A DNA stretch of 64,000 nt from Streptomyces sp. 2114.4 (lineage in GTDB: Bacteria; Actinomycetota; Actinomycetes; Streptomycetales; Streptomycetaceae): assembly GCF_900187385.1 (NCBI RefSeq), contig NZ_FYEY01000001.1, forward strand, positions 5,642,001-5,706,000, in the 5' to 3' direction. The stretch's first letter is position 1, and each line of letters begins with the position of its first letter. A program made the translations under genes and the position numbers. Below are positions 4,646 to 28,760 of the stretch, in pieces. Under the pieces are notes generated by a model. It saw only the letters and a program-made list of their open reading frames with translations, did not search any database and was not told the origin of the DNA.

Positions 4646-7114
4646 TCAGGCCGGTCGCAGCCAGAGGGTGGCCAGCGGGGGCAGGACGGGGGAGACGGAG
4701 GCGGCGCGGCCGTTCCAGGGGGTCGGTTCGGCCGTGAGGGGGGCGGGGTTGGTGATGCCGCTGCCGCCGTAGCGCGGATCGTCGGTGTTGAGCACTTCCC
4801 GCCAGGCGGGTACGTGGTCGGGGACGCCGAGCCGGTAGGAGTGGCGGACGACGGGCGAGAAGTTGCTGACCGAGATCAGCGGCGAGCCGTCGGCGGCGAA
4901 GCGCAGGAAGGAGAAGACATTGTCCTCGCGCGCGTCGCCGTCGATCCAGGAGAAGCCGGCCGGGTCGGTGTCGCGCTCCCACAGCGCGGGGGTGGCGGCG
5001 TAGCGGCGGTTCAGGTCGCGGACGAGATCGCGTACGCCCCGGTGGTCGGGCTCCGCCTCGTACGACGGATCGAGCAGCCACCAGTCCGGTCCGTGGCTCT
5101 CCGCCCACTCCGCCCCCTGGGCGAACTCCTGCCCCATGAAGAGGAGTTGCTTGCCGGGATGGGCCCACATGAACCCGAGGTAGGCACGGTGGTCGGCCCG
5201 CTGCTGCCACCAGTCACCGGGCATCTTCGACACCAGGGCGCGCTTGCCGTGCACCACCTCGTCGTGGGAGATCGGGAGCACGTAGTTCTCGGAGTAGGCG
5301 TAGATCATCGAGAAGGTCATCTCGCCGTGGTGGTACTTGCGGTGCACCGGCTCCTTGGAGACATAGCCGAGGGAGTCGTGCATCCAGCCCATGTTCCACT
5401 TCAGCCCGAAGCCCAGACCGCCGAAGCCACCGGGGCCGACGTGGTGGGTGGCGCGGGTGACGCCGTCCCAGGCCGTGGACTCCTCGGCGATGGTGACGAC
5501 ACCGGGGCAGCGGCGGTAGACGGTCGCGTTCATCTCCTGGAGGAAGGCGACCGCATCGAGGTTTTCCCGGCCGCCGTGGACGTTCGGGGTCCAGTCGCCG
5601 TCCTCGCGCGAGTAGTCCAGGTAGAGCATCGAGGCGACGGCGTCCACCCGCAGGCCGTCGATATGGAACTCCTCGCACCAGTACACGGCGTTGGCGACAA
5701 GGAAGTTGCGGACCTCGGTGCGGCCGTAGTCGAACTCCAGGGTGCCCCAGTCCGGGTGCGCGGCCCGTGCCGGGTCCTGGGGCTCGTAGAGCGGACGGCC
5801 GTCGAACTCCGCCAGCGCCCAGTCGTCGCGCGGGAAGTGCGCCGGCACCCAGTCCATCAGCACGCCGATGCCGGCCCGGTGCAGTGCGTCGATCAGGAAC
5901 CGGAAGTCGTCCGGGGTGCCCATCCTGGCGGTGGGCGCGTAGAACCCGGTCACCTGATAGCCCCACGAGCCGCCGAAGGGGTGCTCACAGACCGGCATGA
6001 ACTCGACGTGCGTGAAGCCCAGGTCCTTCACATAGGCCGGGAGCTGCACCGCGAGCTGGCGGTAGGTGAGGCCGGGGCGCCAGGAGGCCAGATGCACCTC
6101 ATAGACGGAGAACGGCGCCTCGTGCACGGGCCGTTCGCCGCGCCGGGCCATCCAGTCGGCGTCCGTCCAGCGGTAGTGCGAGGCTTCCACGACCGAGGCG
6201 TTGGCGGGCGGGCATTCGGTCCGCCGGGCCATCGGGTCGGCGCGCACGGTCCGCGAGCCGTCCGGCCGGGTGATCTCGAACTTGTAGAGCTCGCCCTCGC
6301 CGATGCCCGGCAGGAAGAGCTCCCAGACGCCCGAGGAGCCCAGCGAGCGCATCGGGTGGCCGGTGCCGTCCCAGTAGTTGAAGTCGCCGACGACCCGCAC
6401 GCCCCGGGCATTGGGCGCCCAGACGGTGAAGCGGGTACCGGTCACCCCCTGGTGCTCCGTGATCCGCGCGCCGAGCGCCTGCCACAGCTGCTCGTGCCGG
6501 CCCTCGGCCAGCAGATGCAGGTCCAGCTCGCCGAGCGCGGGCAGGAAGCGGTAGGGGTCCTGCACCGTCAGGGTGGTGTCGCCGTAGTCGACCAGCAGCT
6601 CGTAGTCCGGGATCGTGCGCAGCGGCAGCACCCCGGCGAACAGCCCGTCGCCCTCGGCGGGCAGGTCGGCGCGCAGTCCCTTCCCCAGGACCGTGACGCC
6701 CCGGGCGCAGGGTTTGAGGACCCGGATGAGCAGTCCGCCGCGGACGAGGTGGGCGCCGAGCAGCCCGTGCGGATCGTGATGGGCACCGTCCAGGAGCCGG
6801 CCGCGGTCCTCGTCGGACAGCGGCACGGCGGGCCGGACCCCATGGCTGCCGGCTGCCGACGGCGCCGCAGGGGACGGGCCCGCGGGCGCGGCCGCCCGGC
6901 CGGGCGGTGCCGTCTCCCGGGGAGCTGACGGCCGGGTGGGCGGGGCACCGGCCGCGGGCCCGGCGAAGGTACCCCGCGCGGCCACCGAAGGGGCGACGGC
7001 CGGCGGCCGGGGCGTCGCCGCGCGGCCGGACCGCCCCGCCGCGCTGTCGTCGGCCGCGCCCGGAGCGGGCGTGGTGTCGGGGGTGGTGGGACGGGACGGC
7101 GGGCGGGCGGTCAC
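4646..7114 (-). CDS. glgB: 1,4-alpha-glucan branching enzyme GlgB
   Basis: An 822-residue GH13 branching enzyme: it cuts alpha-1,4 chains and rejoins them as alpha-1,6 branches, acting on the glucan made by GlgE. Residues 1-100 are a Pro/Ala-rich extension. Then come an N1 domain, a CBM48 domain ([21 protein letters not shown]), the catalytic barrel with nucleophile in [12 protein letters not shown] and acid/base in IAEEST, and a C-terminal beta domain. GTG at 7114 has GAGGAGG seven bases upstream. It is the last gene of the glgE cluster, 120 bases after maltokinase. The Pro/Ala extension makes it longer than E. coli GlgB (about 730); a later internal start cannot be excluded. Confidence 0.93.
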
Positions 7115-7234
7115 GGGAGGCCTCCTCGGTGCGGGGCGGAGTGGTGCGTCGGTCGGGTCTGGGGGGCGTACGGCATTCGGCGTATGGGCGTACGGGCGTA
7201 CGCGCGGCGGATCGGCGGTTCGTCTGTCGGCCCC

Positions 7235-8740
7235 TCACCCCCGGCCGTGGTCGGACCCGGCGGCCCCGCCCGGCCGGCTGTCCGCCTCCAGGGCCGGCTC
7301 CCCGCCGGAGGCCAGCCGCCGGATGGCGGCCATCGGGACGGACAGCCAGTCGGGCCGGTGCCGGGCCTCGTACAGCACCTCGTAAACGGCCTTGTCGGTC
7401 TCGTAAGCGCGCATCAGTTCGGGCGCCGAGCGCGGATCGAGCCCACCGGCCTCCGCATAGCCCCGGCAGTAGGCGTCACGGGTGCGCCGGGCCCACTCCA
7501 GCGCCCAGGGGTCCCCGCCGGCCGGGCCGCTGCGCGCGGCATAGTCGAAGGACCGCAGCATGCCCGCGATGTCCCGCACCGCCGGCTGGAGGCGGCGCCG
7601 CTCGGCCAGCGGGCGGGCCGGTTCGCCCTCGAAGTCGATCAGCGACCAGCGGCCCTCGTCGGCGGAGCGCAGCGTCTGGCCCAGGTGCAGATCGCCGTGG
7701 ATGCGCTGGGCGGCCCAGCTGCGGCCGTCGTGGCCGCTCGTGGCGAGCGCGTCGAAGGCGGTGCGCAGCCGGGCGCGGTAGGGCTGCAGTACGGGCACGG
7801 CGCGGGCGGTGGCGTCCAGCCGCTGGTGCATCTGGGCGGCGATCACCTCCAGCTGCGGGCGGCGCAGTTCGGTGGTCGGCAGCGTCTGGGCGAGCGCGGT
7901 GTGCACCTCGGCGGTGGCATGGCCGAGCGCCCGCGCCGAGCCGGTGAAGTCGGCGCGGACGGCGAGTGCGTTCAGCGCCAGCTGCCAGCCGTCCGCCGAG
8001 CCCGGCAGGAACGGCTGCAGCACGCCCAGCGTCGTTGCCTCGCCGCCCTCCTCGGCGGCCGCCGCCTCGTACCAGGCGGCGGGCGCGGGCACCCGCGCGC
8101 ACTTGGCGTCCGCCAGCGCCCGCGGCAGCTCCAGGTCCGGGTTGACCCCCGGTTCGATCCGCCGGAAGACCTTCAGGATGAAGGAATCCCCGTAGACGAT
8201 CGAGGAGTTGGACTGTTCGACGGCGATCGGCCGGCCCGACAGCCCGGAGGGGATCTCGGCGTCGGGCTCCCGGCTGAAGCACAGCGCCCCGAGCCGGCCC
8301 GGCACCCGCAGCCGCTCCAGCAGCAGCCCGCACAGCCGGTTGTCGAGCAGCGCGTCGTAGACGGTGCGACCGTGCAGCGGGCCGCCGCCGGGACGGCCGA
8401 TCACCGCGGGCGCCAGCTGCGGCGGCAGGGCCGGATGCACCCCCAGCAGAAGTTGGTAGCAGTCGCCGCCGAGGGGCGTACGGCTCGGTGGCGCGCTCTG
8501 CTGGGCGCGGACGAGCAGGAGCAGCAGGCCGGGTGTGCCGACGTCGGTGCACGGCAGCAGTTCGGTCGCCGAGAGCAGCGTGAAGCCGGTGAGCAGCCGC
8601 CCCTTACCGGCGAACCAGCGCTGGCGCGGTACCCATTCGGCGAGCAGCGGAGCCAGCGAGGAGAGCAGATCGGGGGCGGCGGCGAGCGGGCGGTGATCAG
8701 GGGTGTTGCGGGTGGCACGGGTCGAGGCGGTGTCCGACAT
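7235..8740 (-). CDS. pep2: Maltokinase (Mak/Pep2)
   Basis: A 501-residue kinase that phosphorylates maltose to maltose 1-phosphate with ATP, feeding GlgE. It belongs to the aminoglycoside-phosphotransferase-like fold: the N-terminal cap (PRQRWFAGKGR) is diagnostic of maltokinase, the catalytic loop is IHGDLHLGQ and the metal-binding motif is LIDFEGEPARP. I chose ATG 8740, where the maltokinase cap homology begins and a GGAAAGGA element lies upstream. The same frame stays open upstream into treS but has no coding character there. It lies between treS and glgB, as in other actinomycete GlgE clusters. Confidence 0.92.
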   Translation of the reverse strand: MSDTASTRATRNTPDHRPLAAAPDLLSSLAPLLAEWVPRQRWFAGKGRLLTGFTLLSATELLPCTDVGTPGLLLLLVRAQQSAPPSRTPLGGDCYQLLLGVHPALPPQLAPAVIGRPGGGPLHGRTVYDALLDNRLCGLLLERLRVPGRLGALCFSREPDAEIPSGLSGRPIAVEQSNSSIVYGDSFILKVFRRIEPGVNPDLELPRALADAKCARVPAPAAWYEAAAAEEGGEATTLGVLQPFLPGSADGWQLALNALAVRADFTGSARALGHATAEVHTALAQTLPTTELRRPQLEVIAAQMHQRLDATARAVPVLQPYRARLRTAFDALATSGHDGRSWAAQRIHGDLHLGQTLRSADEGRWSLIDFEGEPARPLAERRRLQPAVRDIAGMLRSFDYAARSGPAGGDPWALEWARRTRDAYCRGYAEAGGLDPRSAPELMRAYETDKAVYEVLYEARHRPDWLSVPMAAIRRLASGGEPALEADSRPGGAAGSDHGRG

Positions 8741-18171: not shown

Positions 18172-20118
18172 TCAGCCGGACGCGTCCCGGCCGTGCCAGG
18201 AGTGCCACAGAGCGGCATAGGCGCCGTTCGCCGCCACCAGCTCGTCGTGCGTACCGAGTTCGGTCAGCCGGCCGGCCTCCATGACGGCCACCCGGTCCGC
18301 GTCATGGGCGGTGTGCAGGCGGTGCGCGATCGCGATGACCGTACGCCCCTTCAGGACGGCGGCCAGGGCGCGTTCGGTGTGCCGCGCCGTACGGGGGTCG
18401 AGCAGTGCGGTCGCCTCGTCCAGGATCAGGGTGTGCGGATCCGCCAGCACCACCCGGGCCAGCGCCAGTTGTTGGGACCGGGCGCCGTCGAGGCGGTGGC
18501 CGCCGGAGCCCAGTTCGGTGTCCAGCCCGGCCGGCAGCTCCTCGGCCCAGTCGGCCCCCACGGCGGCCAGCGCGGCGCGCAGAGCGGTGTCGTCGGCACC
18601 GGGCGCGGCGATCCGCAGGTTGTCCCGGACGGTGCCGAGGAAGACATGGTGCTCCTGGGTCACGAGGACGACCTGACGGCGCAGCACCTCCGGTTCCAGT
18701 GCGGCGACCGGCACCCCTCCGACCGTCACCGAGCCGCTGCGCGGCGCGTCGATACCGGCCAGCAGTCGCCCCAGCGTGGACTTGCCGGCCCCCGAAGGGC
18801 CCACCACGGCGAGGCGTTCGCCGGGGCGGACGGTCAGGTCCACACCGTGCAGGACGTCGCGGGGCGCGGCGGTACGCGGGCCGTCGTCGTCCCCGCCGGC
18901 GTAGGCGTAGTGGACGGCGGTGACATCGATGCGGTCGTCGACGGGTGCGACGGGTGCGGCGGGTGCGGCGGGGGAAGGCCGGGGGGAAGGTTTCCCGGAG
19001 GGGTGGGGCAGGAGGGCGGCGGTGACGGGCGCGGTGCTCCGCGAGGCCCCGCCCAGGCCCTCGACGCGGGCGAATGCGGCGCCGCTGCTCTGCAGTTGTT
19101 CGACCCGGAACAGGATCGTCTCCAGCGGCTCGGACAGCTGGCGCAGATACAGCGCAGCGGAGACGACCACGCCCAGGCTGATGCCACCGCGCCCCTGTAG
19201 CACCCCGCCGGCCAGCAGGACGCCGGCCACCGGGAGGACGTACGAGGCATCCACGGCGGGCAGCAGCACGCTGCGCAGGAACAGCGTACGGGTACGGGTG
19301 CGCCGGCAGCGCTCGATGGCCCGCTCGCCCGCTGTGGTCCGGCGCTCCTCCAGCCCCAGGGCCTCGACGGTCCGGGCGCCCGCCGCGGTGGCCGCCAGCA
19401 GTTCGGCGAGCGCCGAGGTCGCCGCCCCCTCGGCCAGGTAGGCGGTGCGCGCCCGGCGCAGGTACCAGCGGACCGCGACCAGTCCGCACAGCATCCCCAG
19501 CCCGCACCCGCCGAGCAGAGGATCGAGCGCCATCACCGCACCGAGCAGGAACAGCGCCTGCACCGTGGCGATCAACACCTCCGGCGCGGCGTCCCGCACC
19601 GCCTCGGCGACCGCGGCCGCATCCGAGGTGCCACGGGTCGTCAGGTCGCCGGTGCCCGCCCGCTCCACCGTCGCGGCGGGCAGCGCCAGCGCCCGGCCGA
19701 CGTACTCCTCCCGGACGCGCGCCACGGTCCGTTCACCGAAGCGGTACCCGACGAACCGGGCGTACCGCGCCAGCAGCAGCTGTGCCATGGCGCACACCAG
19801 GATGACCAGTGCCAGCCGGTCGACCGTGCGCACCCCGCCGCCCTCGCGCACCGTGTCCACGATCCGGCCGAGCAGCCAGGGGCCGGCCAGGCCGGCGCCC
19901 GCGGCCAGGCCGTTGAGGGCGAGTATCAGGGCGAAGGCCCGGCCGTCCCGCCGGATCAGCCGGAGCGCCGCCTGCCGGGTCGTGGCCGGATCGGCCACCG
20001 GCAGCGCGGCACGGTCCGGGGGCGCCGCATGGTGCGGGAGTGCCGCACGGTCTTGCCGTGCCGCGAGGTCCGGGAGCGCGTCCTCGGCTCGTCCGGGCGC
20101 GGTGGGCGACTTCGTCAT
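18172..20118 (-). CDS. ABC exporter subunit with intact Walker A, degenerate signature
   Basis: A 648-residue fused membrane plus ATPase subunit of a type IV (MsbA-like) exporter. Six membrane helices lie in residues 62-345. The ATPase domain has a consensus Walker A (GPSGAGKS, 440-447), Walker B LILDEATALLD with D567 and catalytic E568, but its ABC signature reads LDGAR (543-547) instead of LSGGQ. It overlaps the upstream partner gene by four bases (ATGA) and must form a heterodimer with it. Its Walker sites pair with the partner's intact LSGGQ, giving one working ATP site. Substrate unknown. Confidence 0.9.
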   Translation of the reverse strand: MTKSPTAPGRAEDALPDLAARQDRAALPHHAAPPDRAALPVADPATTRQAALRLIRRDGRAFALILALNGLAAGAGLAGPWLLGRIVDTVREGGGVRTVDRLALVILVCAMAQLLLARYARFVGYRFGERTVARVREEYVGRALALPAATVERAGTGDLTTRGTSDAAAVAEAVRDAAPEVLIATVQALFLLGAVMALDPLLGGCGLGMLCGLVAVRWYLRRARTAYLAEGAATSALAELLAATAAGARTVEALGLEERRTTAGERAIERCRRTRTRTLFLRSVLLPAVDASYVLPVAGVLLAGGVLQGRGGISLGVVVSAALYLRQLSEPLETILFRVEQLQSSGAAFARVEGLGGASRSTAPVTAALLPHPSGKPSPRPSPAAPAAPVAPVDDRIDVTAVHYAYAGGDDDGPRTAAPRDVLHGVDLTVRPGERLAVVGPSGAGKSTLGRLLAGIDAPRSGSVTVGGVPVAALEPEVLRRQVVLVTQEHHVFLGTVRDNLRIAAPGADDTALRAALAAVGADWAEELPAGLDTELGSGGHRLDGARSQQLALARVVLADPHTLILDEATALLDPRTARHTERALAAVLKGRTVIAIAHRLHTAHDADRVAVMEAGRLTELGTHDELVAANGAYAALWHSWHGRDASG

Positions 20119-21959
20119 CGCGCGCCTTCCTCGGTCACGGGTACCTCGGCGGTGCCCGCAGGCCCTGCGCCGTCGGCTTCCTCGTCCTCGCCGCGAGAGA
20201 CCAGGCGGCGGTATCCGGACTGCCCGTCGAGGAGTTCACGGTGACTGCCGACGGCCGCGACTGTTCCGTCCACGAGGAAGTACACCCGGTCGGCCCGGTC
20301 GAGCAGCAGGGGCGAGGTGCTGGTGACCACCGTCGTACGGCCCGCACGGGCGGCGTGCAGCCGGGTCGCGATACCCGCCTCGGTGTGCGCGTCGACCGCC
20401 GAGGTCGGCTCGACGGCGAGCAGTACCTCGGGGTCGGCCAGCAGCGCCCGCACCAGGCGCAGCCGCTGCCGCTGCCCGCCGGAGAGATTGCGGCCCTGCG
20501 CCTCGACCGGTGCGTCGAGCCCGTCGGGCAGACCGCGGACGATGTCCTCGGCCAGGGCCGTACGGACGGCGCGGTCGATCGCCTCCCCGGTCCGGTCCCG
20601 GCGGCCGCAGACCACCTCGCGCAGCGTCCCGGCGAACAGATCCGCCTCGTTGTCCGCCACCAGGATCCGGTCGCGTAGCTGCCGTGCCGCGATCTCGTCG
20701 AGACGTACCGCGCCCCAGGTGGCGGCCGAATCCGCGAACCCGCCCAGGCGGTCGACCACCGCCGCCGACTCGGCAGGCCGGGCGGCTGCCAGCGCGGTCA
20801 GCTGCCCGGGCACCACCTCGACGCCCGACACCGGATCACGCAGCACGGACGCCATGCCGGGAGCGTCCTGTCCGGGAGCGTCGTCCCGTCCGGGAACGCG
20901 CTGCCCGGGAACGTCCCGTGCCGCGCCCGCCTCCCCCACCCGCCGTGCGCCGTCCGGTTCCAGCGCCAGGAACCGTACGACCCGCCGGGCGGCGACCAGC
21001 CCCCGGGTGAGGTCGTAGCCACCCTCGATGAAGAACGACACCGGTAACACCAGCGCCGCCGCATAGCCGTAGACCGCGACCAGCTCCCCTGCGGTGAGGG
21101 TGCCTTGGGCGGCCATCCGCGCCGCCGGCCAGGTCACCGCGGCCAGAGACAGGGTGGGCAGCCCGAGCCCGAGCGCCTGGACCCAGCTGGTCACCGCACC
21201 CACCCGGTAGCCCTCGTCGCGCAGCGCCCGCGAGGCGTGCCGGTAGTGGCCGGCGAACACCGCTTTTCCCCCGAGGCCGTTGAGCACCCGCAGGCCACCG
21301 ACCAGATCCGTCAGCCGCGCCGCCAGCCCGCTCTGCCGCTCGCGGTAGCGCGTCTGCGCTCCCTGTAACCGCCCCAGCAGCGGCCCGACCAGCACCGCGA
21401 GCAAGGGCACACCCAGCAGCACCACCACGGCCAGCAGCGGTGAGATGCTCAGCAGCAGGACGGCGACGACCGCATACGCCAGCACTCCGCCGACGCCGGG
21501 CCCGGTCATCGTCAGCGTCTGGCTGATCACCGCGACATCACCGATCCCGATGGTGACGACCTCCCCGGCGGTCACCTTGTGGGGCAGCGCCGCCCCCAGC
21601 CGCACCGTCTGCGCCATGACGGCGCGCACCGTACGGAACGTGGCGTCCATACGGATGCGGGTCATCGTGCGATGCCGCATCACCGCCAGCCAGGCGTTCA
21701 CCGCCCCGACCCCGAGCAGCACCGCAACCCAGCCCAGCAGCACCGGCATCCGGCCCGTGGCCAGCCCGTCGTCGATGGCCCGTGACAGCACATACGGCGG
21801 CAGCATCAGCCCCACCATCCACAGACTCCCGTACGAGGCACCTGCTGCCACCCGGCCCCGTTGGCTGACCACCAGCCACCACAGATACCGCCCGGCACTG
21901 CGCGGGCCGGGAGCTCCCCGGCCGCTCCGCGGATCCGTCACGCCGTCGGCCGCCGTCAT
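20115..21959 (-). CDS. ABC exporter subunit with lost Walker A, intact LSGGQ
   Basis: A 614-residue partner of the downstream exporter gene. Membrane helices fill residues 25-325. Where Walker A should be (about 384-403) the sequence reads TALAAARPAESAAVVDRL: the glycines and the essential Lys are gone. Walker B is LLAVEPTSAVD, with the Mg-binding Asp replaced by V516 and E517 kept. The signature LSGGQRQRL (492-500) is perfect. The subunit cannot bind ATP in its own site but completes the partner's site. A Gly/Pro/Asp-rich linker (345-370) replaces the usual tight junction. The frame is intact throughout, so this is not decay. Confidence 0.9.
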   Translation of the reverse strand: MTAADGVTDPRSGRGAPGPRSAGRYLWWLVVSQRGRVAAGASYGSLWMVGLMLPPYVLSRAIDDGLATGRMPVLLGWVAVLLGVGAVNAWLAVMRHRTMTRIRMDATFRTVRAVMAQTVRLGAALPHKVTAGEVVTIGIGDVAVISQTLTMTGPGVGGVLAYAVVAVLLLSISPLLAVVVLLGVPLLAVLVGPLLGRLQGAQTRYRERQSGLAARLTDLVGGLRVLNGLGGKAVFAGHYRHASRALRDEGYRVGAVTSWVQALGLGLPTLSLAAVTWPAARMAAQGTLTAGELVAVYGYAAALVLPVSFFIEGGYDLTRGLVAARRVVRFLALEPDGARRVGEAGAARDVPGQRVPGRDDAPGQDAPGMASVLRDPVSGVEVVPGQLTALAAARPAESAAVVDRLGGFADSAATWGAVRLDEIAARQLRDRILVADNEADLFAGTLREVVCGRRDRTGEAIDRAVRTALAEDIVRGLPDGLDAPVEAQGRNLSGGQRQRLRLVRALLADPEVLLAVEPTSAVDAHTEAGIATRLHAARAGRTTVVTSTSPLLLDRADRVYFLVDGTVAAVGSHRELLDGQSGYRRLVSRGEDEEADGAGPAGTAEVPVTEEGAR

Positions 21960-22112: not shown

Positions 22113-22817
22113 TCAGTCCGCCGCGGTGCCGTCGGTCTCGAACCGCGGGGAGCTGCCGGTGCGTTGCTGCTGCGCCGCGGTGAGGGCGCGGACGACGAAG
22201 ATGCCGGCCACCGCGGCGCCGATGACGGCCGCGTCCGCGGCCAGGAGCAGCGGTACGTCCTGGTAGGCGCGGGCGATGACGTCGTCCGTGGAACCCGTGT
22301 ACATCAGGCCCGTACCGCTCAGCATCCCGGCGACCCACAGGCCCCACCACCAGTTCACGGCGCGCGGCAGTGGTTCTCCCGGCGCGCTCGCGCGGTGGAT
22401 GTCGACAATGATGCCGCGCGGCACCCACAGGTTCGCCACGGGCACGATCCAGCCCGCGTAGACCCACGGCCCGGCGTAGCGCGGCGGCTGTCCGGAGAGG
22501 GCGCGGGCGTTGTCCCGGACGCGCCACAACCAGGCCAGAAAGGCGATCGCGCAGAGCACCGTGGTCCCGCCCGCCAGGGCGCTGATGATGTGGAAGCCGT
22601 TCTCCAGGGCGGTCAGCGTGCGATGCCGGCCGCCGCCCTGGTCCGGGAGCCCGGAAGCAGGCATCCCGGACAGGGCGAGCCGGAGCTGCCAGACGGCAAC
22701 GGCCGCCCAGGCGGTCCCGGCGAGGACAAAGGCGGCGACGGCGCCGCGGGCAGCTCCGCGGACCGGGTGCAGGGAGTGCAGCAGGGGATGATCGTTCACT
22801 CGATCATTCTTTCCCAC
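22113..22817 (-). CDS. DUF4328 membrane protein
   Basis: A 234-residue integral membrane protein with about six hydrophobic segments. The stretch WRVRDNARAL...WIVPVANLWVPRGIIVDI is the signature of the DUF4328 family, common and uncharacterised in Streptomyces. GTG 22817 is the first start; GTG 22799 is an alternative. A 7-bp inverted repeat (22788-22807) overlaps the start codons. It lies upstream of the exporter pair in the same direction, 153 bases away, so co-transcription is possible. No function can be assigned. Confidence 0.75.
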   Translation of the reverse strand: MGKNDRVNDHPLLHSLHPVRGAARGAVAAFVLAGTAWAAVAVWQLRLALSGMPASGLPDQGGGRHRTLTALENGFHIISALAGGTTVLCAIAFLAWLWRVRDNARALSGQPPRYAGPWVYAGWIVPVANLWVPRGIIVDIHRASAPGEPLPRAVNWWWGLWVAGMLSGTGLMYTGSTDDVIARAYQDVPLLLAADAAVIGAAVAGIFVVRALTAAQQQRTGSSPRFETDGTAAD

Positions 22818-23494
22818 GGGGGGCGCGTACGCCAGACGGGATCACCGCAGCCGGGCCACGTGGTGTCTCGGCTCGCTGTCGGTGGGCCACGGCCGTGCTC
22901 GCCGCCCTCGGCGCCGGGCCGGCGCCCCCCTCGTCCGGCGCCCTGTGTACACCGCTGCCGTCCCGGGCCGGGCATCCTTCCGGGCCTGATCACGTGTCGA
23001 GGACCCTACGGACCTGTAGGGAGCGCGACTTCATGAGCACTGGCTCCTGCGGAAACACCGGATTCCGCGCCTGGTGAGCAGCGCGTGTGCTCGGTGATCA
23101 CGAGCAGCATGGCCCGCCAGGCTCTGAGCGGTAGTCACTTCGGGTAGCGGACTCCGCTTCTTGGGCAGCAAGCAGGTGTTTTTCACTTTCTCCTCTGCAA
23201 GCTGGAGGGGAGGGGGTGAGCTTCAATGGTCTCGACGATCGCCGGGTCGCTTACGTTTCCTGTCCCGCCGGAAAAGCGAAGAGCGGAGGATAGGTGACAG
23301 GCCATCTGTATCAGTGGCACTCAACCGGCAAGCAGACCAATACTCGCCAACTCCATTCCTTGGGCAGTTCGCTGAGTCGGGCGCACCCGGAATGGGCGCC
23401 CGGCCACCTTCGGCAGCAGGAGGCCCCATTGCGCATGCCACGCCGGGCTGGGTACAGTCACCATCGTGCTCAACTTGAGCGATTGAGGGAGGTT
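22818..23494. other. Region upstream of the small-peptide gene, GC falling
   Basis: About 675 bases without a secure gene. A CCCTAC/GTAGGG inverted repeat (23004-23021) precedes a 14-codon reading frame MSTGSCGNTGFRAW (23033-23077). Another 23-codon frame (23226-23297) has a purine-rich ribosome site and ends in GTGA, overlapping a GTG at 23294 whose frame runs into the peptide gene at 23495. These may be decayed or regulatory frames. From about 23160 on, base composition is visibly less GC-rich than the flanks. Confidence 0.45.
23429..23458 (+). promoter_or_regulatory. Candidate promoter of the small-peptide gene
   Basis: TTGCGC (23429-23434) and TACAGT (23453-23458) are separated by 18 bases, close to the vegetative Streptomyces pattern. 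Transcription would begin near 23465, giving a leader of about 30-40 bases before the peptide start. Confidence 0.5.
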
Positions 23495-23623
23495 ATGCCC
23501 GAGATGAATAGTTCCGAGGAGCAGGAGACGGACCTCGCCTACATCGATGAGGCCGACCTGGCAGCAGTGCACGGCGGTGGTGTCGGTAACCACCAGACCC
23601 ACGGGCACGCTACTACGGACTGA
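23495..23623 (+). CDS. Putative RiPP-like precursor peptide (42 residues)
   Basis: A 42-residue peptide. An acidic first part (MNSSEEQETDLAYIDEADLAAVH) resembles leaders of ribosomally made, modified peptides. It is followed by GGG at residues 27-29, a likely processing site, then the 13-residue tail VGNHQTHGHATTD, with three His, three Thr and no Cys. A GGGAGG element (23487-23492) is only two bases from ATG 23495 and eleven from ATG 23504, so the peptide may start at residue 4. It is followed by a perfect hairpin and then the oxygenase-like gene. Codon use is less GC-biased than in the flanks. No family is recognised; the precursor role is inferred from size, architecture and neighbour. Confidence 0.6.
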   Translation: MPEMNSSEEQETDLAYIDEADLAAVHGGGVGNHQTHGHATTD

Positions 23624-23628
23624 AGGCT

Positions 23629-23658
23629 GTGGCGCGCGGGTAATCCCTCGCGCGCCAC
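23629..23658 (+). terminator. Hairpin between peptide and oxygenase-like genes
   Basis: A perfect 10-bp stem GTGGCGCGCG (23629-23638) with CGCGCGCCAC (23649-23658) five bases after the peptide stop. It could act as a terminator or attenuator allowing more peptide message than enzyme message, as in several RiPP operons, or it may stabilise the peptide mRNA 3' end. Confidence 0.65.
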
Positions 23659-23760
23659 TCCCTTCTGTTCGATCCCCGTCCTTTGGTGTCGCGCTGCTTG
23701 AGGCTTGTATTCGGACGTTTCCAAGAGTTTGAGAATACGCCTACACAAGAAGACGAGTTT

Positions 23761-24666
23761 ATGACAGCTTCACGCCCCGAAGGCAAGGCAAGCGAGTTTC
23801 ACCTCGACGATGCGCGGTGGGGCGAGACGCCCGGCATGGAGACGCCGATCGACAGCTTTGGGCGAAATGACCTGAAGCGGTACGGCTTCGAGTGGGAACG
23901 TGACGCTGTTCGTGTCCGCGTGCAAAGCGATTTGATGCCGCTGGGCGAGCGTCTGTGTGTATCGAATGGAGTGCGGCCGGCCGATGACCCGCGTTACCGG
24001 TCTCATGCTTCTGTGCCGATGTGGCCCTGGCGCACACTCGACGCTGCCGAATTGGAGACGCTGTGTGCGCCGCCCGGACAATGGGATATGCGTCGAATGG
24101 TTGGCGTCTGCCGTTTCCCCCCTTCGGTGCATCGCGAACTCGTGCGCGTGGCACTCGCTTACGCGAATGCCTTCAACGCACACGATGAACAGGGTGTTGA
24201 CGTAGCCAATCGGGATGCAGCCGACCTTCTCGGAGAATATCTTCTGACGCGGGAAGGTTTCGGCCTCATTGGTTTGGCGGCTCGCGACCCAGGGCTTGTG
24301 ACAGTTACTCCGAGAATAGAAACGGGTCTCCTCACGGGACTGCACGTTGACGGCTGGGACACTTTCAGGCCGGTTGGGCTGGCTACCAACCGTGTAGGGG
24401 TGAATCTAGGGAAAGGGTCGCGGTCGCTTCTCTACGTGCCGTTCGCCGCCGATGCGTTGGGGCTGGCAGACCACAAAACGTGGGATCGGCGTATTCCCGG
24501 CTTCTTCACCGCACACCCGCAGTGCCCTGTCCTGCGGGTCCGTATTGACCCGGGAGAGGCGTACATCGCCCCCACTGAACTGGCTCTCCATGATGGAAAT
24601 ACTGAGGGAAACCAGGCGATCGACGTCTGCCTGCACGCGCGAGGACAGTTCGGAATCCCTGAGTAA
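23761..24666 (+). CDS. Fe(II)/2-oxoglutarate oxygenase-like enzyme next to the peptide
   Basis: A 301-residue soluble protein of no family I recognise firmly. The C-terminal half has the pattern of a double-stranded beta-helix iron oxygenase: H195-x-D197 in TGLHVDGWD, a strand NRVGVNLGKGSRSLLYVPF, distal H277 in TELALHDG, and R294 in CLHARGQF as possible 2-oxoglutarate anchor. The N-terminal half (1-170) is a mixed domain with PMWPWRTLDAAELETL. ATG 23761 has only a weak purine stretch upstream; TTG 23683 or GTG 23686 would add about 25 residues. A hand count of 24181-24240 gives 32 G+C in 60, far below the flanks, suggesting transfer. Its likely substrate is the preceding peptide. Confidence 0.6.
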   Translation: MTASRPEGKASEFHLDDARWGETPGMETPIDSFGRNDLKRYGFEWERDAVRVRVQSDLMPLGERLCVSNGVRPADDPRYRSHASVPMWPWRTLDAAELETLCAPPGQWDMRRMVGVCRFPPSVHRELVRVALAYANAFNAHDEQGVDVANRDAADLLGEYLLTREGFGLIGLAARDPGLVTVTPRIETGLLTGLHVDGWDTFRPVGLATNRVGVNLGKGSRSLLYVPFAADALGLADHKTWDRRIPGFFTAHPQCPVLRVRIDPGEAYIAPTELALHDGNTEGNQAIDVCLHARGQFGIPE

Positions 24667-24867
24667 TTTCCAGCTTTGGGTTGAGACATGGTGAAGGGCG
24701 AGGATGGAGCGAAGAGCGGATGCTCCTCCGTTGGAAAGATCATAAACGGCAGATAGATGGAGACTGCTGACCGTAGCGACTGTTCATGATCCCGGGGTAA
24801 TGCCCAAACAGTGCTCATGATCGCGCGGAAGTGCTCACGCAACCGCGGAACCTACAGGACCGACGGG
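24667..24867. other. Lower-GC spacer ending the island
   Basis: About 200 bases with no gene. It includes a weak GGAGC/GCTCC inverted repeat (about 24707-24733) that may end the island transcript, and the related words TGTTCATGATC and TGCTCATGATC at about 24779 and 24810. GC content returns to normal at about 24850, next to the convergent exporter gene. Confidence 0.4.
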
Positions 24868-26841
24868 CTACCCCACGCTCTCCCGCCACGCCCGGTGCAG
24901 CTCGGCGAACCGGCCCCGGCCGGCGATGAGTTCCTTCGGTGGGCCGTCCTCGACGATCCGGCCGTCGGCCATGACCAGGACCCGGTCGGCGATCTCGACG
25001 GTCGAGAGGCGGTGGGCGATCACCAGGGCCGTACGGCCTTGCAACACGGTGGCCATGGCGCGCTGCACCGCGCGTTCACCGGGGATGTCCAGCGAGCTGG
25101 TGGCCTCGTCGAGGATGAGGACGGCGGGGTCGGCGAGCAGGGCGCGGGCGAAGCCGACCAGTTGGCGCTGGCCGGCGGATATCCGGCCGCCGCGCTTGCG
25201 GACGTCGGTGTCGTAGCCGTCCGGCAGCGCGGTGATGAAGTCATGGGCGCCGATGGCCTTCGCGGCGAGTTCGATCTCCGCGCGGGTGGCGTCCGGGCGG
25301 CCGAGGGCGATGTTGTCGGCGACCGTGCCGGAGAACAGGAAGGCCTCCTGGGTGACCATGACGACACCGCGGCGCAGGGTGGTGGTCGACAGCGCGCGCA
25401 GATCGACGCCGTCGAGCAGCACCTCGCCCTCGGTGGGGTCGTAGAAGCGGGCCAGCAGCTTGGCGAGGGTGGACTTGCCGGCGCCGGTGGCACCCACCAC
25501 GGCGACGGTCGTGCCCGCCGTCAGCGTCAGATCGAAGCGGGGCAGCACCTCGCCGCCCGAGCGGTAGGCGAACCGGACGCCGTGGAAGGCGACCTCGCGG
25601 CCCGGCCGGCCCGCCGCCACGGCCGGCAGCGCGGCAGGTGCCGCGGGCTCCGGCACGCCGGGGCGCAGGGCCAGCAGACCGGCGATCTTCTGGAGGGAAG
25701 CGGCCGCGGATTCATAGGAGTTGAGGAACATCCCGAGCCGGTCGATGGGGTCGTACAGCCGCCGGAGGTAGAGCACACCGGCTGCCAGCACACCGAGCGC
25801 CAGCCCTCCCGTGGCCACACGGTAGGCGCCCCACAGGACGAGTGCGGCGACCGTGGTGTTGGCCACCAGCCGGGAGGAGACGACGTAGCGCGCCATCTCC
25901 AGGGAGGTGGCGCCGTTGATCCGGGCGTGCTGGTGGTTCAGCCGGGCGAAGGCGGCGTCGTTCGGCCGCTCGCGGCGGAACGCCTGCACCGGGCGGATGC
26001 CGCTCAGGGTCTCGGTGAACTTCACGATGACACTCGCCATCGCCGTGGACTTCGCGCTGTAGACCCGGTGCGAGCGGTGCCGGAAGGAGCGTACGAGGAG
26101 GGCGAGCGGACCGGCGGAGACGAGGGCGGCCGCGCCGAATCCCCAGTCCAGCCAGATCAGGGTGGCGGTGATGTAGATCGTCGAGAGCGCGACTGTGATC
26201 AGCTCCTGCAGCCCCTCCTCGAGGAGTTCACGCAGCGACTCCACGTCCGTCGTGGCGCGGGAGATCAGCCGGCCGGACGTATAGCGCTCGTGGAAGTCCA
26301 GGCTCAGCGCCTGCGCATGCCGGAAGATGCGGCCGCGGAGGTCGAGCAGCACATCCTGGCTGACCCGGGCGGAGAGCTGGATGAAGCCGAACTGCAGCCC
26401 GCCGGACGCCACCGCGCACAGCACCGCCGCCACCGCCACGGCGATCAGCGGCCCGTGATCGCCCGCCCGCAGCGCCGGCACCGCGCTGTCGAGCGCGTAG
26501 GCGACCAGCAGCGGGCCGGCCTGCACGGCGGCCTGCTGGAGCAGCAGCGAGGCGGCCACCCACCGGACCCGGCGCCGGTGCGGGGCCAGCAGGGAAGCCA
26601 GGAGGGTGCGCGAGGCCCCCTTGGGGGTGGGGAGCAGATCGTCTGCGAAGGCATCGGTGGCGGGGGAGCCCGGGGCCTCCGGGGAGCCCGGGGCCTGCGG
26701 GGTGCCCTCGGGCTCCGGCGAGCTCTCGGGCTCCGAGGTGGCCTCGGCCTCCGGGGAGCGCGGTGTGGCGGGCGGCTGTTGTTGCGGGGCGCGGTGCCCC
26801 TCGGGGCCGTCGGGCGGGAGGCCGGTTGCGGTGGTGGTCAT
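24868..26841 (-). CDS. ABC exporter subunit (heterodimer partner 2)
   Basis: A 657-residue fused membrane plus ATPase protein. Residues 1-80 are a Pro/Glu/Ser-rich cytoplasmic extension. Six membrane helices follow, then an ATPase domain with Walker [10 protein letters not shown], signature ISAGQRQL (Ala for the first Gly) and a consensus Walker [12 protein letters not shown] with catalytic Glu. It overlaps the upstream gene by four bases. The order is like that of mycobacterial and other actinobacterial heterodimeric exporters. Substrate is unknown; the end of the gene faces the peptide island, but direction and normal GC suggest an older, separate unit. Confidence 0.9.
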
Positions 26842-28760
26842 CGGGCGCTCTCTCCCTCGCCGGACATCAAGGTGGCGTACTCGGCGTTGTCCCGGAGCAG
26901 TTGGTGGTGGGTGCCGACGGCGGCGATCCGGCCGCCGGACAGCAGTGCCACCCGGTCGGCGAGCAGAACCGTGGACGGCCGGTGGGCGACGACCAGGGCG
27001 GTGGTGGCCGCCAGGGCCCGGCGCAGCGCCGCCTCCACCAGTGCCTCGGTGTGCACATCGAGGGCGGAGAGCGGATCGTCGAGGATCAGGAAGCGCGGCC
27101 GGCCGACCACCGCACGGGCCAGGGCGAGCCGTTGCCGCTGCCCGCCGGACAGGCTCAGCCCCTGCTCACCGACCTGGGTCGCACTGCCCTCGGGCAGGGC
27201 GTCGACGAATCCCTCGGCCTGTGCCACCGCCAGCGCCCGCCGCAGATCGCCGTCCTGCGCATCCTCTGTGCCCATCAGAACGTTCTCCGCGGCGGTCGCC
27301 GAGAAGAGTGTGGGCTCCTCGAAGGCCACGGCGACCAGCGCACGGGCCTCGTCCCGGCCGATCGTCGCCAGATCGCGCCCGTCGAGGGTGATCCGGCCCG
27401 CGGTCGGGTCGTACAGCCGCGGCACCAGCGCAGTGAGGGTGGTCTTCCCGCTGCCCGTCGCCCCGACCAGCGCCATCGTCTCGCCGGGCCGGATGTGCAG
27501 GGTGACGTCCTGGAGGAGGGGCGGGGCGTCCGGCGGCGCATCGGGGTAGCGGAACTCGACGCCGGAGAAGACCAGTCCGCCGGTGCCGGGCAAGGCGGGA
27601 AGGGGGGAAGCCGGGGCGCCCAGGGGGCCTGCGGTGGTGGCCGGTGTGTCCGTGGGCAGAGCGTCCCCACCCCGTACCTCCCCACCCCGTACGCCCCCGC
27701 CCCGTACGCCCCCGGTCCCTCCGCCCGTCGCCGGTTCCTCCACCGCGGGCTCGTCCATGACCTCGAAGTACCGGTCGGTGGCCGTTGCCGCCTCGTTGGC
27801 CATCGCCAGCAGGAAACCGGTCGACTCCACGGGCCAGCGCAGCGCCAGCGCGGTCGACAGGAAGGCGACGAGGGTGCCCGCGGACAGCTCGCCGTCGGCC
27901 ACCTGGAGCGAGCCGAGTACCAGGGCGCCGCCGATCGCGATCTCCGGAAGTGTGGTGATGCAGACCAGGATCCAGGCCAGCAGCCGGGCCTTGCGGAGTT
28001 CGGAGCTACGCAGCGCATGCGTCAGCTTCCGGAAGGACCGGGCCTGGCTGCGGTGGCGTCCGAAGCCCTTGATGATGCGGATGCCGAGCACCGACTCCTC
28101 GACCACCGTCGTCAGATCGCCGACCTGGTCCTGGGCCTGGCGGGCCGCCCGCCCGTACTTCGCCTCGAAGACCGAGCACAGCGCCATCAGCGGCGGCACC
28201 GGTGCCAGCAGCACCAGGCCCAGAGACCAGCGCTGGGCCATGAGGATCACCGCGCCCACCAGGATGGTCACCCCGTTGACGAGCAGGAACGTCAGCGGGA
28301 AGGTGAAGAACATCCGCAACAGCTGAAGGTCGGTGGTTCCCCGCGACAGCAACTGGCCCGAGGGCCAGCGGTCGTGGAAGGCGACCGGCAGCCGCTGCAC
28401 ATGGCGGTACAGCGCCTCGCGCATCGCCGCCTCGACCCCGGCCAGCGGGCGCGCCACCAGCCAGCGCCGCAGTCCGAACAACAGCGCCTCCGCCAGCCCG
28501 AGCAGCAGCAGGAAGGCGCCACCGAGCCATATCCCGCCCGGATCGCGCCCGGCCACCGGCCCGTCCACCAGCCACTTGAGCACCAGCGGGATGATCAGGC
28601 TGATGCACGAGGCGAGTATCGCCACGCACGCGGCGGTGCCCAGGCGCGCCCGCACCGGGCGGATGAACGGCCACAGGCGCAACAGCGAGCGCACTGCGGA
28701 GCGCTGGGGTAAGTCGGTCCGGTCGGGCGGGGGCGAGGTCTGCGCGGTATCGGCCATCAC
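26838..28760 (-). CDS. ABC exporter subunit (heterodimer partner 1)
   Basis: A 640-residue fused membrane plus ATPase protein, first gene of the pair. Membrane helices lie in residues 35-320. Walker A GATGSGKTT and signature LSGGQRQRL are intact, but Walker B reads LILDDPLSALD: the catalytic Glu is replaced by Asp. This marks the non-consensus site of a heterodimeric exporter, so the working ATP site should contain the partner's Glu. A Gly/Arg/Val-rich linker (about 328-355) is encoded by three near copies of a CCCCGTACG-containing unit (27665-27715). ATG 28760 is followed by a typical N-terminal amphipathic stretch. Confidence 0.9.
   Translation of the reverse strand: MMADTAQTSPPPDRTDLPQRSAVRSLLRLWPFIRPVRARLGTAACVAILASCISLIIPLVLKWLVDGPVAGRDPGGIWLGGAFLLLLGLAEALLFGLRRWLVARPLAGVEAAMREALYRHVQRLPVAFHDRWPSGQLLSRGTTDLQLLRMFFTFPLTFLLVNGVTILVGAVILMAQRWSLGLVLLAPVPPLMALCSVFEAKYGRAARQAQDQVGDLTTVVEESVLGIRIIKGFGRHRSQARSFRKLTHALRSSELRKARLLAWILVCITTLPEIAIGGALVLGSLQVADGELSAGTLVAFLSTALALRWPVESTGFLLAMANEAATATDRYFEVMDEPAVEEPATGGGTGGVRGGGVRGGEVRGGDALPTDTPATTAGPLGAPASPLPALPGTGGLVFSGVEFRYPDAPPDAPPLLQDVTLHIRPGETMALVGATGSGKTTLTALVPRLYDPTAGRITLDGRDLATIGRDEARALVAVAFEEPTLFSATAAENVLMGTEDAQDGDLRRALAVAQAEGFVDALPEGSATQVGEQGLSLSGGQRQRLALARAVVGRPRFLILDDPLSALDVHTEALVEAALRRALAATTALVVAHRPSTVLLADRVALLSGGRIAAVGTHHQLLRDNAEYATLMSGEGESAR

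Follow-up and report, generated by a model that had tools for sequence, protein, structure and literature searches.

A putative minimal RiPP-like gene pair on a transposase-less Tn7-like cassette in Streptomyces

A 64,000-nucleotide stretch of the Streptomyces sp. 2114.4 genome (contig NZ_FYEY01000001.1; hereafter the window) contains two adjacent genes, one for a 42-residue peptide and one for a 301-residue enzyme, enclosed within a short mobile cassette. The features of the locus are as follows.

23010–23014, no strand assigned: left target duplication GGACC, identical to 24857–24861
23015–24856, no strand assigned: mobile cassette, 1842 bp, with borders from alignment with the NBC_01454 copy and ends from a matrix built on other elements
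23015–23041, plus strand: left terminal repeat TGTAGGGAGCGCGACTTCATGAGCACT, 31.4 bits in the end matrix
23294–23395 (approximate), plus strand: serine resolvase remnant, N-terminal part, from protein and DNA matches to recombinase genes
23487–23492, plus strand: ribosome-binding site GGGAGG of the peptide gene, read from the sequence
23495–23623, plus strand: peptide gene, 42 aa, with an acidic leader-like part, GGG and a His-rich tail, kept in the TSRI0281 and NBC_01454 copies
23629–23658, plus strand: hairpin of 12 pairs between the peptide and enzyme genes, z -6.1
23761–24666, plus strand: gene for a MicC-type Fe(II)/alpha-ketoglutarate oxygenase, 301 aa, assigned by homology and motif
24830–24856, minus strand: right terminal repeat TGTAGGTTCCGCGGTTGCGTGAGCACT, 39.9 bits in the end matrix
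24857–24861, no strand assigned: right target duplication GGACC, identical to 23010–23014

The initial annotation of this DNA placed a two-gene RiPP-like island at 22990–24850, nearly the extent of the element at 23015–24856, and both of its frames are present as claimed, the peptide with its GGG and Cys-free 13-residue tail and the enzyme with its 301 residues. It also described the genes as lower in G+C than the flanks, in agreement with 32 of 60 bases at 24181–24240; in 500-base windows the G+C content is 0.60–0.62 from 23000 to 24999, compared with 0.744 at 22500–22999 and 0.722 at 25000–25499. Its reading of an oxygenase in a RiPP setting is supported in part; it missed both the transposase-less Tn7-like cassette and the absence of a radical SAM partner.

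Two further Streptomyces records contain the same unit at different sites, with 93–95% identity at the DNA level, and the pair is therefore more than a chance juxtaposition. One copy is in Streptomyces sp. TSRI0281 (L002; enzyme 94% identical in protein sequence), found in the genome_contigs scan, which detects close relatives only, and the other is in Streptomyces sp. NBC_01454 (L089; enzyme 94.7% identical), from the plasmid collection. The window's own genome is the sole match at this identity among 392 genomes, and these three close copies are the entire sample for comparing peptide and enzyme. The peptide gene lies 5' of the enzyme gene in all three, and the two thus move together in every copy.

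The ends of the cassette are imperfect 27-bp inverted repeats. The plasmid copy in NBC_01454 is flanked by a different 5-bp duplication (TGCAC/TGCAC), and the TSRI0281 copy has kept its left end and lost the right. With a scoring matrix derived from other elements only (14 ends, including two identical ones), the two cassette borders are the best sites in the window at 39.9 and 31.4 bits; the next scores 8.8, and the best score in 20 Markov-shuffled windows is 14.5 bits. An extra end-like site of 26.0 bits lies just outside the NBC_01454 cassette at L089 9107 and may be left over from an adjacent element. Mobility of the cassette is well supported by these sequence features. No empty site was found in the loci of 29 relatives, where the right flank alone was matched. 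Inside the cassette, the resolvase remnant shares 15 of 26 residues with a Streptomyces recombinase that contains a Resolvase domain (E 4e-6, in a three-sequence search); in the window, though not in the other copies, it occupies the same reading frame as the peptide. There is no frame for tnsA, tnsB, tnsC or tniQ, nor room for them within 1842 bp, and the cassette encodes no protease or exporter. Two ABC exporter gene pairs flank the insertion at 18172–21959 and 24868–28760 of the window; a spacing of 12 bases separates the cassette end from the end of the closest ABC gene, and these flanking genes, outside the cassette, have no peptidase domain.

Target duplications of 5 bp are typical of Tn7, and ends of the same type are found beside Tn7-like transposition genes. 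In the tnsA-tnsB-tnsC-tniQ set of pFRL5 an end lies about 210 bp ahead of tnsA, with no far end found within 30 kb. When 199 genomes were searched for TnsB, 22 matches reached an E-value of 1e-100 or lower; six of these 22 loci have such an end, that at L134 being weaker, and 16 are without. At L117–L121, whose TnsB proteins are at least 66% identical, a similar end is located about 0.9 kb ahead of tnsB, and 62 of the first 80 bases of the cassette right end agree with the L118 end. The inner repeats are of the TGAGCA type in L108, L117 and L118, TGCGCA in L120, and others in L119 and L121. The Streptomyces Tn7-like elements (pFRL5, L117–L121) thus resemble the cassette in having TGTAGG or TCTAGG termini followed by a repeated inner motif, but they carry tns genes and the cassette has none. 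An earlier assignment as an IS21-like insertion cassette was dropped once ends of this kind had been found next to TnsA-TnsB-TnsC-TniQ genes. Published work has defined Tn7-like ends by clustered end repeats together with target duplications (PMC10293859), and mobilisation in trans is possible for non-autonomous elements (PMC10761935). From its ends and duplications, we suggest that the cassette is moved in trans by TnsABC-TniQ machinery. The window's own genome has a TnsABC-TniQ set (G000:C1, about 4106063–4112359), ahead of which is a gene that, reading by eye, we take to be dnaB. This set was rejected as the helper: it has an end-like TGTAGG before tnsA but different inner repeats, and no helper with matching ends was found in this genome.

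Cassette-type ends are not restricted to the three copies. A stringent end pattern matched one of 61 genomes, the window's own, and on other Streptomyces plasmids same-type ends bound elements of 235, 235, 244, 244 and 2776 bp, located as follows.

L098 4001–4235, L093 3001–3235, L104 4862–5105 and L106 1615–1858: miniature elements of 235–244 bp on Streptomyces plasmids
5001–7776 of NZ_CP113104.1 (Streptomyces sp. NA13): the L111 element, 2776 bp, whose cargo is a protein kinase gene

Three of the four miniature elements have perfect 5-bp duplications, and that in L093 agrees at four of five bases. The L111 element is flanked on each side by TCAGCG, a 6-bp repeat displaced by one base relative to the 5-bp test, and is a second transposase-less cassette. 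Overall, five of seven elements checked, including those in the window and NBC_01454, have perfect 5-bp duplications, and several further plasmid loci have one end only. The miniature elements share both end types with the cassette and are likewise transposase-free, but the four are too short for peptide and oxygenase cargo, and the L111 element has the kinase instead. In the open-licence literature searched, no paper joins Tn7-like elements, MITEs and Streptomyces.

The enzyme is well supported as a member of the alpha-ketoglutarate/iron oxygenase family by its sequence relationships. A 19-sequence profile matches PDB 9VKM, deposited as the alpha-ketoglutarate-dependent non-heme iron oxygenase MicC, with an E-value of 1.8e-36, bearing out the Fe/2OG oxygenase-like identity first proposed, and the window protein as a single query matches it at 2.3e-10. 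The homology with MicC extends over the conserved part, including the HxD, NLGxxxR and HDG motifs; the open-licence literature searched holds no paper on MicC. Residues A83, G193, H195, D197, N215, L216, G217, R221, H277, D278 and G279 are invariant in all 19 aligned sequences, and the HxD...H facial triad of H195, D197 and H277, through which the oxygenase would bind iron, is thus kept throughout; use of alpha-ketoglutarate is predicted as a family property. The motif H195-x-D197, H277 and R294 that the initial annotation singled out is located as claimed, but R294 does not hold as a family residue: by our reading of the alignment it is present in only four of 19 rows, those of L090 and of the three cassette copies, and the invariant R221 appears the better candidate for cosubstrate binding. 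Assignment of the beta-helix fold rests on homology, because an AlphaFold model made from two sequences only (pLDDT 27.7) is unusable for judging it. No curated model in Pfam, NCBIfam, PHROGs or PADLOC fits the window enzyme, its 19 relatives gave single chance-level matches only against curated family models, and viral contigs contain no relative.

The tail of the peptide is VGNHQTHGHATTD, which contains no Cys and no Trp, Phe or Tyr. Relative to the window, the TSRI0281 peptide differs by A15V, N32H and T41A, and the NBC_01454 peptide by A20T, H26Y, N32H and T41A. The residues H33, Q34, T35, H36, G37, H38, A39, T40 and D42 of the tail are invariant across the three copies, and Asn, one of the sites suggested for modification, cannot be required, since N32 is His in both of the other copies. 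A division into leader and core may be indicated by the GGG and the conserved N-terminus, with A15V, A20T and H26Y variable among the three copies. In the window the peptide is contained within a 109-aa GTG-started frame which is broken 5' of the ATG in both other copies, whereas the 42-aa frame has no indel in any pair; the ATG at 23495 is therefore the likely start. One G is missing ahead of the GGGAGG ribosome-binding site in NBC_01454. The peptide matches no family in Pfam, NCBIfam, PHROGs or PADLOC, and a tblastn search of 392 genomes recovered its own copy at 5.5e-24, all other matches listed having E-values of at least 0.019.

The hairpin is positioned directly 3' of the peptide stop codon in all three copies, with z values of -6.1 for the window hairpin and of -3.4 and -4.6 for the other two. 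It may hold peptide output above enzyme output; it is not among the results of a simple terminator scan, and a promoter scan detected no promoter. Its location between the two genes also suits a different, rather unlikely explanation, that the 42-aa frame encodes either a leader or regulatory peptide for the enzyme gene, with the hairpin as an attenuator, or a separate small protein, and that the oxygenase acts on some other cellular peptide or protein. Consistent with this, the peptide is unlike the precursors beside the enzyme's relatives (one precursor compared), and the selection signal on it is weak, with dN/dS values of 0.83, 0.54 and 0.26 for the three pairs coming from only 4, 6 and 6 changes. 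Yet those relatives are found in clusters with small precursors, and a GGG followed by a short tail resembles a leader-core split.

The resolvase remnant within the cassette and the lost right end in TSRI0281 could also be taken as signs that the cassette genes are a decaying, functionless passenger, and copies are few (one genome_contigs locus, one close plasmid record, and the window's own genome alone among 392). We regard this as highly improbable: both frames are open in all three copies, the invariant family residues are retained, and dN/dS for the enzyme is 0.23, 0.33 and 0.34 for the three copy pairs.

We then examined the neighbourhoods of the enzyme's relatives. A genus search of 392 genomes gave matches in 28, including the window's own, and the neighbourhood set of 29 loci comprises 27 of 29 remote genes (those of G191 and G291 left out) and two plasmid loci. 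Of the 29, 25 have a cyclophane-type radical SAM gene no more than about 3.1 kb away, the L055 match being a fragment only, and no radical SAM gene was matched nearby in L039, L054, L056 and L058. From an order search of 391 genomes (29 with a match, including the window's own), 11 further loci were chosen; a radical SAM gene is adjacent in eight of these and absent in L173, L177 and L178, although these counts are not independent because several loci are near-copies (e.g. L032 and L169). Curated models identify AmcB and the precursor AmcA in L037, AmcB in L048, and GrrM/OscB in a Nostoc plasmid. In L057 the enzyme does not reach the cut-off for AmcB, and GrrM/OscB is annotated in the records of L090 and L091. 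The relatives are thus usually located in RiPP-type clusters, some with a recognised precursor, in support of the RiPP-type setting first proposed. In L034, L052 and L168 an oxygenase relative and a radical SAM gene are accompanied by what reads by eye as an asparagine synthetase-like protein; small frames in L034 and L052 terminate in GSCxxGYxxWGD, and in L168 there are two oxygenase relatives, arranged back to back.

No radical SAM maturase was matched in the DNA around the pairs in the window, TSRI0281 or NBC_01454. The three cassette proteins group together with support of 100/100 on a long branch of a midpoint-rooted tree built from 29 sequences; the members of the surrounding clades mostly lie beside radical SAM genes, and the simplest reading would be that the cassette lineage has lost its radical SAM partner. 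The amc (AmcA/AmcB) and grr/osc (GrrM/OscB) clusters likewise contain an oxygenase of this protein family adjoining small peptides, but they differ from the cassette in having a radical SAM maturase, in the amc clusters also a pentapeptide-repeat protein, and precursors with W/F/Y motifs that the cassette tail lacks. The cassette is not a member of the cyclophane RiPP clusters, because tests for a radical SAM partner and for an aromatic core motif were both negative, and by analogy it may resemble the oxygenase step of such clusters. OscB-type enzymes form Trp–Asn/Asp and Phe–Asn links (PMC11002830); the open-licence literature searched yielded no paper on the AmcA/AmcB peptides.

Since the relatives are usually paired with radical SAM enzymes, the peptide could instead be cross-linked first by a radical SAM enzyme encoded elsewhere and then oxidised by the enzyme of the cassette. 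One candidate in the same genome is an FxsB-family cyclophane-forming maturase (G000:C1:5509670; L116 1297–2607) about 156 kb upstream, which scores 441.9 bits against a cut-off of 370, and there is also one SPASM protein, 2.4 Mb away, that reaches no named family above its cut-off. Triceptides containing His do exist (PMC11002830). Nonetheless the cassette moves without any radical SAM gene, its tail has no Trp, Phe or Tyr, and in the window's own genome, the one searched, no GrrM-type protein scored above cut-off in named-family and SPASM searches, the latter of which omitted the FxsB gene. We consider such prior cross-linking improbable.

The explanation that we favour, at somewhat better than even chances, is that a non-autonomous Tn7-like cassette carries a minimal RiPP-like pair in which, with no radical SAM partner involved, the His-rich peptide is oxidised by a MicC-type oxygenase. 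The peptide would be the substrate of the enzyme, which most likely recognises the leader part. Oxidation of the tail we infer because peptide and enzyme are paired and because of the setting of the enzyme's relatives; the most plausible sites would be the residues invariant in the three copies, and the kind of oxidation is presumed in turn. The GG(G) would then be the site at which a host protease or exporter cleaves the leader, and, more speculatively, the His residues may allow the product to bind metals.

The cassette can be imagined, though we hold this broader proposal only tentatively and at rather less than even chances, as one of a class of transposon-packaged minimal RiPPs, in which a MicC-type oxygenase, detached from the radical SAM pathways in which its relatives work, is the sole tailoring enzyme of a His-rich peptide, the product possibly binds metal, and the pair is spread between chromosomes and plasmids by transposase-less Tn7-like cassettes. 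If the favoured explanation is correct, two genes in 1.84 kb would constitute a very small self-contained module for peptide oxidation, and a natural case of biosynthetic genes mobilised in trans by Tn7-like machinery. The cassette would also offer a simple enzyme-peptide pair in which to ask about the role of MicC-type oxygenases apart from radical SAM chemistry, a question not answered by the unnamed members of the family in amc and grr clusters. The cassette ends may likewise provide a handle for finding other Streptomyces cargo that is moved in a similar way.
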